Assembly: GCF_000686525.1 (NCBI RefSeq)
Contig: NZ_JMKT01000009.1
Location: 1 to 64,000, forward strand
Origin: Desulfonatronovibrio hydrogenovorans DSM 9292
GTDB lineage: Bacteria > Desulfobacterota > Desulfovibrionia > Desulfovibrionales > Desulfonatronovibrionaceae
Direction: 5' to 3'
Length of the DNA stretch: 64,000 bases
In this document: in pieces, positions 16,704 to 46,449 of the stretch
How the letters are laid out: every line of letters begins with the position of its first letter
Numbering within the stretch: the first letter of the stretch is position 1
Program-made: the position numbers and the translations under genes
The notes under the pieces: model-generated
The model's input: the letters and a program-made list of their open reading frames with translations, nothing else
Database searches by the model: none
What the model was told of the DNA's origin: nothing

Positions 16704-17516
16704 TTATTCCTTGTTTTTCCTGGTCTTGTTCATGGTGAAGTTGAGCATCTTCCTGGCCTGGTCAAAGTCCGGATTGATCTTCAGGGCTTTCTCAGCACAA
16801 AGTCTGGCCTCTGTTAATTTCCCGGCATCAATGTAAAGCCTGCCCAGGTTGAAGTGCAGGTATTCGTCCTTGGAATGAATCTGGATGGCCTGCTGATAGG
16901 CCTTTTCCGAATCTTCAAAACGTCCGAGCTTTCTAAGGGCCATTCCCAGGCGGTTATAAATATGAACTGAACCTGGATTGTCCTTGTAGGCCAGTTTAAG
17001 ATACTCAATGGCCTTCTGGTATTCCTGGGCATTGATGAGCAGGTCGGTGATGTCGATTTTCAGTTCAAAGTCTTTGTCAAAATCCCGGACCAGTTTTTTG
17101 AAGATGGCCTGGGCATTATCAATATCTTTTTCATCCAGGCGCTGCCTGGCCTGGGCAAGGGATTCTCTTTTTCTTTTTTCCAGCTCGGCCAGGGTGTCCT
17201 TGGCATTGTCCGCCAGGGAATTCTGCATGGCATTCAGGAGTTCCCGCAGATTTTCAACCAACTCTTTTTCTTTGCCTGACTCAAAGGTCAAAAGGATAGG
17301 ATAAATTTCCCTGACTTTGGGATGGCTGTTCACCAGGTAGACGGTTTTGTCCAGAAGATCGGCAAATTCTTTTTTTTCATTTTGCAGCAGATTGCCTTTG
17401 AGATAGGTCAGCAGACCATCATAAAATGCGTTTACAGCCGGCAGGATCTTGTTCTGCTTGAGAAGGGAAGATACACTGTTCAGATTTTTACGGGCTTTGG
17501 TTATTTCGTTGGACAT
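16704..17516 (-). CDS. TPR-repeat protein
   Basis: 270 aa. The N-terminal half is helical and charged (KARKNLNSVSSLLKQNKILP, then EKRKRESLAQARQRLDEKD). From about 135 there are three to four tetratricopeptide repeats, such as AIEYLKLAYKDNPGSVHIYN, KAYQQAIQIHSKDEYLHFNL and CAEKALKINPDFDQARKML. No signal peptide. Such proteins are adaptors; the partner is unknown, perhaps the methyltransferase encoded immediately downstream. Confidence 0.85.
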   Translation of the reverse strand: MSNEITKARKNLNSVSSLLKQNKILPAVNAFYDGLLTYLKGNLLQNEKKEFADLLDKTVYLVNSHPKVREIYPILLTFESGKEKELVENLRELLNAMQNSLADNAKDTLAELEKRKRESLAQARQRLDEKDIDNAQAIFKKLVRDFDKDFELKIDITDLLINAQEYQKAIEYLKLAYKDNPGSVHIYNRLGMALRKLGRFEDSEKAYQQAIQIHSKDEYLHFNLGRLYIDAGKLTEARLCAEKALKINPDFDQARKMLNFTMNKTRKNKE

Positions 17517-42813: not shown

Positions 42814-43146
42814 TTATCTTGTCAAGCCCGGCTGAGGGCCGCCAGCCCTCCAGTGCGGGCAGTCAAAGTCCCGCATGTCCTGCATGAGGCAATCGTTTCT
42901 GGTCATCACGCAGGAGTCAAGACAGTCCATGTCCCCAGGGGGGCACAGGGCTTCGCACTGGTCCCGTTTACCATCGCAAGCTCCCAAAATGCTGCGGAAG
43001 GTCTCGTTGCAGCAGTTGGTGCAGACGATGAGGTCAGGGCAGCCTTGCATGCAGTCGACGTAGGTGCCGGTGACGGCATAAAGGTTGGGCGTTGCCATGA
43101 ACAAGAGGGCCAGGGCCAGGCAAGGGGTCAGGAATAGTTTCTTCAT
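42814..43146 (-). CDS. Secreted 12-cysteine protein A
   Basis: 110 aa from the ATG at 43146 (AAGGAG upstream). A signal peptide of about 24 residues is followed by a short mature protein with 12 cysteines: C32, C36, C42, C45, C46, C57, C64, C68, C75, C79, C86 and C96. Several are spaced CxxxC (32/36, 64/68, 75/79), a pattern seen in disulfide-stapled helical hairpins. No CxxCH. Not recognised. A second 12-cysteine gene lies upstream, and a broken copy of this gene's 3' end lies at 45371-45456. Confidence 0.75.
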   Translation of the reverse strand: MKKLFLTPCLALALLFMATPNLYAVTGTYVDCMQGCPDLIVCTNCCNETFRSILGACDGKRDQCEALCPPGDMDCLDSCVMTRNDCLMQDMRDFDCPHWRAGGPQPGLTR

Positions 43147-43315
43147 TTTCAAGCTCCTTATGGCGAGGTCAGTGTGAAAAGTGTTGATCAACCAAATACT
43201 TCGAAAGGCCAAAGCTCCAAAGCACTTAACTGTCCGGCGTGGACTGGCCACACGTGGCAGGTGAGGATCTTGACGTCGGATGTAATTGTAGTGGTTCATT
43301 ATGAGTTATTAGAGA

Positions 43316-43663
43316 TTATTCCCTGCAGACGCCATGAAAGCACTCATCCAAACATGCTCGTGCATCCTCACCACTCACCATGTTGCGGCATTTCCATGTG
43401 CAGGCCAGGCAAGGATCATCCTGAGGCATGACTGTGGTACTTCTGGTCAGGCCAGACTGAGGCACGGAACAGAACGGTTGGCACATTTCCTTGCATTTTT
43501 TGTGATCATTCGCGGGTATGCTCCGGCAGACGTTATGGCATTCGGCGCAATGGGAGGTGTCCAGGGGTGGATCCTCGTTTTGTGCATGGCTGGAGGTGAT
43601 GGGCTGGCAGAGCAGGGCAGCTATTGCTGTGATAGTGAAGTACTTTTTGCTCCAGATATTCAT
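43316..43663 (-). CDS. Secreted 12-cysteine protein B with internal repeat
   Basis: 115 aa from ATG 43663; a GTG 9 bp upstream is possible. Signal peptide to about residue 28. Twelve cysteines in two matching six-Cys units: C39-x2-C42-x3-C46-x10-C57-x3-C61-x3-C65 and C85-x2-C88-x3-C92-x11-C104-x3-C108-x4-C113, so an ancient internal duplication. One CxxCH (CAECH, 39-43) could bind a c-type heme but the second unit lacks the His, which argues for a disulfide or metal role. Related in style to protein A, which follows it. Confidence 0.72.
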   Translation of the reverse strand: MNIWSKKYFTITAIAALLCQPITSSHAQNEDPPLDTSHCAECHNVCRSIPANDHKKCKEMCQPFCSVPQSGLTRSTTVMPQDDPCLACTWKCRNMVSGEDARACLDECFHGVCRE

Positions 43664-44058
43664 GAGAATCACCCGTGTTGAGTGTTGATGTTTTTCATAT
43701 ACTAAGCACTATCTATGCCACATAATAAAATCATTAAATATCAGCATATTATTAGAATTGCCAACAGGGCTGGCCCTTAAGTTGGCACCAATATGGTTGG
43801 CAGTAATTGGCACTTCATCTTGTGGTCCAGGGTGCTGAATTGCAAGAGAGGGCTGAGTTCTGCCCTTAGCTGGACATTATCCTGCTTTGGGGGGAGGTTA
43901 CAAGAATTATATCGTGACTGTGGTGGGGATGATGGAAGCTGCAAGGCCAGATACCCTGCCTAAGCCCGGAGCATGGCCTCTGGATCAGCAGCTCCGGGAG
44001 GCAGGTAGTCTTCAAAATTCAGGGGACAGGACTACTGCAGGAAAATAGCCGTAGGCTT
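43664..44058. other. 395-bp intergenic region, no gene seen
   Basis: Contains closely spaced TTGGCAC / TTGGCA repeats near 43785-43813, possibly a regulatory cluster for the Cys-rich genes. No open frame with a recognisable product. The right side meets the integron cassette. Confidence 0.4.
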
Positions 44059-44143
44059 GGATAACGTCTAAGCTAAGCGGCGCGGCGTTAGCCGCGTCCG
44101 GTGGAGCGCGAAGCGCGGAACGAACTTGAGCGACTTGTTAGGC
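44059..44143 (-). other. Integron attC site (59-base element) of the AbiV cassette
   Basis: On the minus strand GCCTAAC (inverse core, 44143-44137) is followed by AAGTCGCTCAAG, an imperfect inner palindrome rich in CGCG, CGCCGCGCCGCTTAGCTTAGAC, and the core GTTATCC (44065-44059). The outer boxes, the spacing (85 bp) and the inner arms fit the attC pattern recombined by IntI as a folded bottom strand. The AbiV stop codon lies inside the inverse core, typical of gene cassettes. Confidence 0.85.
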
Positions 44144-44841
44144 TTCGTTTGATTTTGGCTGAGCATTGACAAATCTTTTGAACTTTTCCGAATCATCCAT
44201 CAGGCCGTTTGCGACCATATCCTCACCCCATTGCACAAGAGCTTTCTTCATCCAGCGCATGTCCCCTTTCCAAACAGGCCCAACGTGCTTTTTCCAAAGT
44301 TCAACCTCCAGCTCTGTAAACTGTCGAGAAGGTGAAAGCAGCTCCGCGGTTGATACAAGATACATTGCAAGGCTTTCGTCAATGACCTCCGCTGGAATAG
44401 ACCAGTGCGCTTCACCAAGGCAATCAGTATAGAATCCAATTTGTTTAATGCGATCCAGCAGTGCTGGGTGGTCTGATTTAGGGTCAACGACTTGGCGAAG
44501 CTCCTCCAAATTGGAAGCACCGGAAGCTGCAAGCTGCGGCAGAATCCAATGTGTGTTTTTGGACCGATGAGAGCGATACCGCTTCCAGGCGTCTTTGAGA
44601 TCCTCCTGATTGCGAGCGAGTGCGAGTTCTCGAAGAATAGAAACCTTCCCGGCCTCTTCAATTGCAAGAGCTGCGAGGGAGGCCCCGGAGGCAAGACCTC
44701 CTGAGTCCACTAGAATCCTAGCGTCATTGGCCAATCGGCGCGCATTCATTGCCGCCGCATTCATTCCAGCTACGATCCGGCTTGTCTCTAGTGGTCCCTT
44801 GTATTGCTTTAGGTCAGTAGACATATGTACCCAAGGCTAAC
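44065..44841 (-). mobile_element. Complete integron gene cassette carrying AbiV, without an integrase nearby
   Basis: The upstream boundary is GTTAGCC at 44841-44835, and the downstream boundary is the attC core GTT at 44065, giving a cassette of about 776 bp. Excision would rejoin ...ACATTG with TTATCC..., leaving a G|TT secondary-type site. No other attC and no intI gene is seen in the window, so it is either a stray cassette inserted at a secondary site or a leftover of a larger array. Confidence 0.75.
44138..44824 (-). CDS. AbiV-family abortive infection protein
   Basis: 228 aa. The N-terminal half matches the HEPN-like AbiV family: AMNARRLANDARILVDSGG, then SLAALAIEEAGKVSILREL. A HEPN-type R-x4-H motif is visible at R87-SKNT-H92, the pattern of metal-independent RNases. 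The C-terminal half carries helices ending WMKKALVQWGEDM. In Lactococcus AbiV stops phage by blocking translation late in infection. It lies in an integron cassette, a common carrier of defence genes, next to a large Mu-like prophage. Confidence 0.8.
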   Translation of the reverse strand: MSTDLKQYKGPLETSRIVAGMNAAAMNARRLANDARILVDSGGLASGASLAALAIEEAGKVSILRELALARNQEDLKDAWKRYRSHRSKNTHWILPQLAASGASNLEELRQVVDPKSDHPALLDRIKQIGFYTDCLGEAHWSIPAEVIDESLAMYLVSTAELLSPSRQFTELEVELWKKHVGPVWKGDMRWMKKALVQWGEDMVANGLMDDSEKFKRFVNAQPKSNEA

Positions 44842-44847
44842 AATGTT

Positions 44848-44853
44848 ATTATA
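44848..44853 (-). promoter_or_regulatory. Perfect -10 box directly upstream of the AbiV cassette
   Basis: TATAAT on the minus strand, 6 bp outside the cassette boundary, so transcription would begin about at the junction. The -35 is poor (AAGAGT at 17-bp spacing, after a T8 run). If active, a host promoter drives the cassette gene. Confidence 0.4.
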
Positions 44854-45199
44854 CGGAATTCAAAAAAAATACTCTTACATGTTTTTCCAAAAATTACTTA
44901 ACAATTTCATACTATTTTTCTAAACTCAGTATCTGTCGAAAATCATATTTTTCAATACATTATAATGCCTAATCAATTTATCTCCTAGGGCCCAGGTCAG
45001 CTTTATGCTTAATGTCCAGGTCAGTTTTGTACAGCATTCATTTGCTCATCATGTTCTGTGGAACATAAAGCCAACCTCGGAGAAAAACCAAGGATGCAAC
45101 TGTGATCATTTTTTAGGGTTAAAGTAAGGTCTTGAAAGACAGATGCCGTCTGAATCGTTACTAAGCATATCTGTAAGCCATTATCAAGTCAGTACTGGC
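44854..45199. other. About 350-bp AT-rich intergenic region
   Basis: Two direct repeats of CCAGGTCAGYTTT lie at 44995-45007 and 45019-45031. Otherwise AT-rich with no open frame of interest; probably decayed mobile DNA. Confidence 0.35.
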
Positions 45200-45370
45200 T
45201 CAGGGAAACTGAAAAATCACCCTGTGGTGTGCAAGACTACGGGCATGCTCTGAGAGAAATTTAAGCCCGTCTGAATAATCAATTTTTCTTCTGTATTTTA
45301 CAATGTCTGACTGCAGCTTCAGAGCGTCAGGGTCTGAGTATGTCAATGACAGAACTGACAGCCGGTCTTT
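45200..45370 (-). pseudogene. C-terminal remnant of an unknown protein
   Basis: Leftward, a 57-codon frame runs to a TGA at 45200 and reads like genuine protein (LSVLSLTYSDPDALKLQSDI, then YRRKIDYSDGLKFLSEHARS). It has no start codon context and its upstream edge is the border of the displaced Cys-rich gene fragment at 45371, so it is a truncated 3' end. The parent family is not recognised. Confidence 0.35.
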
Positions 45371-45457
45371 GTCACGCCCGGCTGAGGGCCGCCGGCCTTC
45401 CAGTGCGGGCAGTCAAAGTCCCACATGTCCTGCATGAGGCAATCGTTTCTGGTCATC
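45371..45457 (-). pseudogene. Displaced copy of the 3' end of Cys-rich gene A
   Basis: 87 bp aligned to 42821-42907 with 4 mismatches. It encodes MTRNDCLMQDMWDFDCPHWK and the Gly/Pro tail of protein A, without the rest of the gene. Both ends of the match are abrupt. It shows a duplication or a recombination scar involving the Cys-rich locus across the integron cassette. Confidence 0.8.
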
Positions 45458-45524
45458 GATCGGGTCGAACCTAACCATCATACTCAAATATCAGGATAAA
45501 TTTCCCAAATTAGCCTGTTTTCAG

Positions 45525-46291
45525 TCACGCGCTTCGCGTGATTAGAAGCCCCTTTTTACCATCAAAAACATCATTGTAAGCCGACAATGGTTCTTTCAAA
45601 GCATATAATCCAGCCTTGCCTACTTCATGAACCTTGCGGCCACAAGCTCTTCCGCCAAGCATCTCCTTGACCTTTTCTACAAAATCCTTGCAGCCCACAG
45701 CAACACTTTCAGTCCAACCGGCTTGTCTGGGAGTGCGCTCATCCACTGCTGCCTGAACCCATCCAGAGTAAACCTTGGATAAATGATCGTCGATATCCAG
45801 TAGTCTATTCAAAAGATCCCTGCTGATAATCCGGTATCTTTGCTGTGGCTCGATTATCTCATGGTATCCGCCATGACTCCATTCTTTGGGATGTTTAACT
45901 ACTTTGTTCCTGACCATATTTAAGTCAATGTAAACCAGGAACTTTACCAGGTGCTCGTCCACATCCACTGCTGTGGCGTGATACCTGTCTTCCCAAAAAG
46001 CACCCTTCCGCTTTTTCCTTTGATTATATTCCTGGCCAGTCCTGCCAGCTATCAATTGCAAAGATCTGGGAATAAATCTTTGTCTTCATGTCCGTGCACC
46101 AACAAATGAATGTGATTTGAGGTGACAGTATAATTCAATACCTGCAGTCCATACCTCTTTTTCGCTTCGAACAACCATTTGATCCAAGCTGACCGGTCCT
46201 TGGCGAATTTCAGCAGGAATTCTTTTTTGTGGCATCTATGGGTTATATGCCAAACATGATCAGGCAATAAATATCTGCTGGCTCTGGGCAT
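45525..46291 (-). pseudogene. REP-associated tyrosine transposase (RAYT, Y1_Tnp type), frameshifted
   Basis: The 5' part, from ATG 46291, reads MPRASRYLLPDHVWHITHRC and has the HUH-like pair in SNHIHLLVHG. It stops at 46052 after DKDLFPDLCN. In the next frame the protein resumes SLQLIAGRTGQEYNQRKKRK, GAFWEDRYHATAVD and YIDLNMVRN, which should hold the catalytic Tyr, and ends at 45525. A one-base shift near 46060-46070 splits the gene, so it is probably inactive unless recoded. Such enzymes act on REP hairpins. Confidence 0.85.
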
Positions 46292-46449
46292 AATATGGTT
46301 ACACCTATATTTTTGGCCCCAAAAAAGGCATCCTAAGGCATTTTTTTGGCCCTGTAGAGACCCTTTACTCAATTAGTTAAATAGGTTGGTTAGGTCCGAC
46401 CCCATGCCCGCATGCCCGTCTTCCCATTTCCATCTCCTTGCTTATGAAT

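Follow-up and report, generated by a model that had tools for sequence, protein, structure and literature searches.

An AbiV-family gene cassette in the attI of a relic integron platform of Desulfonatronovibrio hydrogenovorans

Related systems and layout of the locus

Integrase-less cassettes have several possible sources, namely decay, rearrangement and off-target insertion. Two kinds of system, the pseudo-integrons and the CALINs, are already known. CALINs resemble the locus described here in having an attC cassette without a neighbouring functional intI, and mobilisation of such cassettes in trans is possible in principle (PMC12444791); however, the definition of CALINs rests on attC clusters alone, with a usual threshold of two attC, whereas the present locus falls below it with one attC and possesses an attI and an intI stub besides. 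Pseudo-integrons share the decayed intI, and some of them arise by duplication within the genome (PMC2426708). The lineage described below differs from them in its many copies per genome, cut to the 5' part and keeping an almost unchanged attI core, and in orthologous relics that differ in their cassettes. Chromosomal integrons with a long IntI, such as those of deltaproteobacterial clade 15 (PMC2426708), can be likened to the present genome by length alone, its integrase being likewise clearly longer than usual, but they hold one array, while here the cassettes are split over several sites. Regarding the gene itself, it has the HEPN_AbiV domain and an R-x-H-x2-K motif in common with AbiV of Lactococcus abortive infection, although the PADLOC AbiV model gives only 16 bits on the window protein. 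As far as searchable papers show, the new features are the many platforms per genome consisting of attI plus stub and the turnover of cassettes after local integrase loss; no searchable paper names orphan attI platforms, which does not prove their absence.

The window is a stretch of 64,000 nucleotides, the first of contig NZ_JMKT01000009.1 (C9:1-64000, other contigs of the same genome being designated in the same way). Its AbiV gene is a real mobile integron cassette, located in the attI of a relic second integron platform, as can be seen from the features in Table 1. The reading favoured here, with a probability of roughly 0.6, is that this mobile cassette at a relic attI would be served in trans by a distant integrase, would be expressed from the attI and leader region and would act in abortive defence.

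Table 1. Features of the AbiV locus (positions in the window)
Feature	Position	Strand	Remarks
Distal flank of the cassette	43650..44058	+	Repeat family of a congener, there also ending at attC sites
attC site	44059..44143	-	R'' GCCTAAC 44137-44143; L''/L' arms; R' GTTATCC 44059-44065
Integrated gene cassette (TTAGCC...attC...G)	44065..44840	-	776 bp; G^TT at both ends
AbiV-family HEPN gene	44138..44824	-	228 aa; starts with ATG, stop codon within R''
attI of the relic platform	44838..44910	-	70/73 positions identical to the live integron attI
attI core TAACAATGTTATTATACGGAATTC	44838-44861	+	Includes TATAAT 44848-44853
Decayed leader and intI 5' part	44911..45281	+	Recognisable for aa 1-45; all frames carry stops; no catalytic part
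Direct repeat, 89 nt, of 42819-42907	45369..45457	+	96% identity; borders the transposase element
Fragmented Y1 (IS200/REP-type) transposase element	45459..46405	-	Inverted ends; PF01797 just under the cut-off

The AbiV cassette and its attC site

The AbiV gene claimed in the earlier note was confirmed on the minus strand, its product scoring 131 bits against Pfam PF18728 (HEPN_AbiV; cut-off 27.1), and no second copy of it occurs in the genome. As also described there, GTTAGCC precedes the gene and GCCTAAC...GTTATCC follows it, with the stop codon within the inverse core. The locus thus has the make-up of an integron gene cassette, an ORF followed by an attC and delimited at either end by G^TT, in which the G of the upstream GTTAGCC is 44841 and the last G of the attC is 44065; the reading frame and both boundaries are intact. 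The boundary on the attI side has the same position as in the live platform of this genome and in some 20 others, and at the opposite end the flank supplies every base of R' except the G.

The attC was recognised by its homology. It is 94.6% identical over 56 nt to an intergenic attC on a Shewanella plasmid, adjoining an annotated integron integrase, and 74-77% identical over its length to integron attCs of Salinivibrio and Providencia, and is of a kind that occurs in integrons of gammaproteobacteria. A strict scan for RYYYAAC...GTTRRRY found no match, and the pattern was then loosened. The generic attC covariance model left the site unscored and missed the near-identical Shewanella attC as well, while it detected the Salinivibrio homologue with 20.4 bits; since the model is insensitive to this type, its silence on the window is not counted as a refutation. 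In its integrated form the site does not fold better than shuffled sequences. When its own R' is put back, to match the excised circle, the site takes the canonical attC hairpin as its fold of lowest energy, but this arm pairing is equalled by 16% of shuffles, and therefore the case for the attC rests on homology and not on folding. This failure of both the generic model and folding to single out the site is what speaks for core motifs that flank an ordinary AbiV gene by chance, with no cassette, an explanation that is contradicted by the homologies and that we consider barely credible, because the attC has homologues in integrons elsewhere, an attI lies next door, and related AbiV genes at several other loci (Colwellia, Shewanella, Alteromonas, Salinicola, Idiomarina, Vibrio and Burkholderiales) also have attC-like sites behind them.

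Homologues of the protein were collected from 24 loci, 22 sequences being aligned at 45-60% identity. Residues R84, H86, K89 and N90 are invariant among these 22, giving the motif R84-x-H86-x2-K89, whereas R87 and H92, proposed earlier as an R87-x4-H92 HEPN motif, are variable in the same alignment, and the canonical HEPN RNase pattern Rx4-6H is thus not conserved. The R-x-H-x2-K arrangement is kept in the solved AbiV relatives 9bj5 and 9bj7. A survey of HEPN proteins describes AbiV as lacking the histidine of Rx4-6H and having an alternative one (PMC3710099), with which the residue pattern seen here agrees. No AbiV relatives were found in phage records, and plasmids gave two matches only (46-47%). 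A role in phage defence is suggested by family membership, according to which the product would be an effector of the HEPN type, predicted to bind RNA or to act as an RNase in abortive infection.

The attI, the integrase remnant and the intact integrase

The AbiV cassette directly adjoins the attI. A TATAAT is indeed present just beyond the upstream boundary, as previously reported, but its interpretation as a host promoter has to be abandoned: the hexamer is part of the conserved attI core, found in 22 copies at zero or one mismatch, and is therefore integron sequence. From the live copy, 390 nt running from attI into intI align to window 44837-45221 with 75% identity in the same order and orientation, and window 45064-45281 is 82% identical to a further copy at C11. 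An attI, a leader and a broken intI 5' stub beside the cassette identify the locus as a relic second integron platform. It is not a complete integron, as only a 5' remnant with stops, and no functional intI, lies beside the attI; the claim of a lone AbiV cassette without an adjoining functional integrase is accordingly borne out. The same facts, a single cassette with no functional integrase alongside, had been read as capture at a secondary site (attG) in plain chromosome. This is contradicted by the layout and very improbable, since an attG insertion lies outside any attI or attC, whereas here the attI core and the intI remnant adjoin the cassette in the order and orientation of the live integron. 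Nor does the locus require any link to a prophage.

The intI remnant is bounded by the Y1 transposase element, which has 32-nt inverted ends, is split into two frames in the window and is multicopy in two genomes of relatives (G009 and G002).

The statement that no intI is visible did not hold, both for the remnant in the window and for the contig, as a full-length integron integrase (TIGR02249, 365.7 bits against a cut-off of 265) is encoded at C9:385383-386312, 341 kb away. Its alignment to the solved IntI4 (2a3v) extends across the catalytic residues, and an array lies upstream of it, with attCs at 17304, 15390 and 13118 of locus L010 and weaker ones. Genome-wide, a complete integron is therefore present, with an intI above the curated cut-off, an attI and an attC array. 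The search for an integrase and further attC sites proposed in the earlier note thus yielded one intact intI and this array, while a DNA search of the genome gave no second copy of the window attC. At its N-terminus the integrase (L002 967-2475) is extended by about 170 aa that have no Pfam match, and it is to this part alone that the relic stubs correspond.

Compared with the live site (C9:384658), the window shows 3 differences in the 73 positions of the attI and 99 in the 314 positions beyond (Fisher p 1e-7). The divergence jumps from 4% to 31% at about +73 of the attI, an abrupt step which indicates either a functional attI of that length or two sites recently converted. The identity over 73 nt, together with the cassette, could have been acquired from another array by gene conversion or homologous recombination instead of site-specific recombination at the relic, in keeping with the sharpness of the step and with an attI conservation across the order at large of about 25 nt only. 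However, neither the window attC nor the AbiV gene has a second copy in the genome, the junction is exactly G^TT, and a functional attI of about 73 nt would also stay alike if one integrase served both sites. We regard this origin as rather improbable.

Dispersed relic platforms and cassette turnover

Relic platforms of the same construction, with an attI core and an intI 5' stub but with the catalytic part deleted, are dispersed in this genome and in its order. In the stretches read from both, the attI core TAACARTGTTATTATRCGGAAYTC occurs 13 times exactly, 9 times with one mismatch and 6 times with 3-5 mismatches, while three shuffles gave none at five mismatches or fewer; loci L010 and L011 overlap and both hold the live site, making the distinct attI sites one fewer. 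The copies in the genome itself lie at C9:44838, C9:384658, C2:4174, C2:5711, C12:169829 and C9:377022, with extra pieces of intI stub at C11 and C1, giving at least six attI or intI-stub copies. One relative (G025, a single contig) has six intI stubs and no intact intI at E<1e-40, and in one of them (G025:2808k) intI is deleted from +455 to the gene end. A protein search with the whole IntI returned, besides long copies and ordinary Xer-type recombinases, fragments from the first 100 or so residues only, and no relic with the catalytic part alone.

Most of these platforms carry attC cassettes. A covariance model was built from 24 attCs, leaving out that of the window, and run on the genome stretches read; 22 of its 25 matches lie within 6 kb of an attI, correctly oriented and on its cassette side. 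Outside the seeds, 15 of 18 matches are so placed, where area and strand would predict 12% (p=1e-11). The cassette genes at the relics encode, among others, a HEPN/DUF4145 protein, FRG, NYN-LOTUS, RES, KAP NTPase and PIN proteins, with an ART-like product just under its curated cut-off and a BrnT-like one under it; a ParE toxin lies beside the degenerate attI of C12 in the window's own genome. The list has a toxin and defence flavour, an impression from the genes and not a computed enrichment. A gene-less unit (TTCCCGCGACGC..GCGTCGCGGGAAC with a GC-rich stem) stands at the attI of several platforms (L072, L080, L082, L168, L165 and L171) and reappears within arrays, and looks like a mini cassette without a gene.

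Orthologous platforms of two relatives, G025:1099k and G049:C57, form one contiguous alignment of 95.7% from attI +1 to +1115, which spans the truncated intI and shows the truncation to be common to both. Their distal flanks, shared from G^TTCGGT, are 94-97% identical, whereas between the attI G^TT and the distal G^TTCGGTGAGCAG the contents are wholly different: HEPN and FRG cassettes in the former, the gene-less mini cassette and a NYN-LOTUS cassette in the latter. Another pair, G025:465k and G020:C20, has the end point of the intI deletion in common and a different cassette side, which in G020:C20 includes a transposase-like gene. The pair G020:C3 and G025:2808k was excluded, as its flanks are common but the ends of the intI deletion are not identical. 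As seen by these sequence comparisons, a platform with an already truncated intI can hold different cassettes in relatives, with exact G^TT boundaries. This points to cassette turnover after local integrase loss, probably in trans, and is most simply read as site-specific recombination by an integrase encoded elsewhere; homologous exchange with a strain bearing other cassettes between the same boundaries could also account for it. Neither G025 nor G049, one of which is an incomplete genome, has an intact intI today, implying that the trans integrase of this clean pair has since been lost or came from elsewhere.

This turnover bears on whether the AbiV cassette is a fossil in cis, inserted by the platform's own intact integrase and stranded when the intI body was later deleted. 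Such a history requires no trans action, and pseudo-integrons are common, amounting to about a third of intI genes (PMC2426708). On the other hand, the AbiV reading frame and cassette boundaries are intact beside a stub that is about 30% diverged and carries stops, the window attI has hardly diverged from the live one, and orthologous relics of sister genomes switched cassettes after intI loss. The fossil is an unlikely but serious competitor, more so than conversion. The order of events is read from the sister genomes, and the AbiV cassette itself may have come before or after the decay of its neighbouring intI.

Under the favoured reading of a mobile cassette served in trans, an integrase from elsewhere, here the IntI at C9:385 kb, would recombine the orphan attI as it does its own, and the retained attI and leader region would drive expression of the first cassette. 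More tentatively, the genome might hold a distributed integron, where one integrase serves dispersed orphan attI platforms with their own intI trimmed to a stub, selection keeps attI and leader, and each platform expresses its own, often defence-like, first-position cassette. Were an integrase to use orphan attI sites in trans, there would be several first-cassette slots per genome for one integrase, integron capacity would be counted differently, and scattered single defence cassettes, which are ignored by tools with a two-attC threshold, would be explained. In any case, an attI with an intI stub beside an integrase-less cassette names its origin, and the attI core, rather than attC clusters, offers a simple search target.

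On the distal side of the AbiV cassette, window 43650-44058 was considered as an empty-site comparator in a congener (G002) and rejected, because it belongs to a repeat family there, and no clean empty site is claimed for the window. The family has about 20 partial copies in that genome (loci L157, L158, L160 and L188) and a short form, TAACAACGGTTACCC; two of the copies (C34 and C51 of G002) stop exactly at an attC-like site. Further out, window 42814-43299 and 43316-43672 encode two small cysteine-rich, probably exported proteins without a Pfam match. Several relatives contain repeats of the DNA of the former, and 89 nt of this DNA recur next to the transposase.
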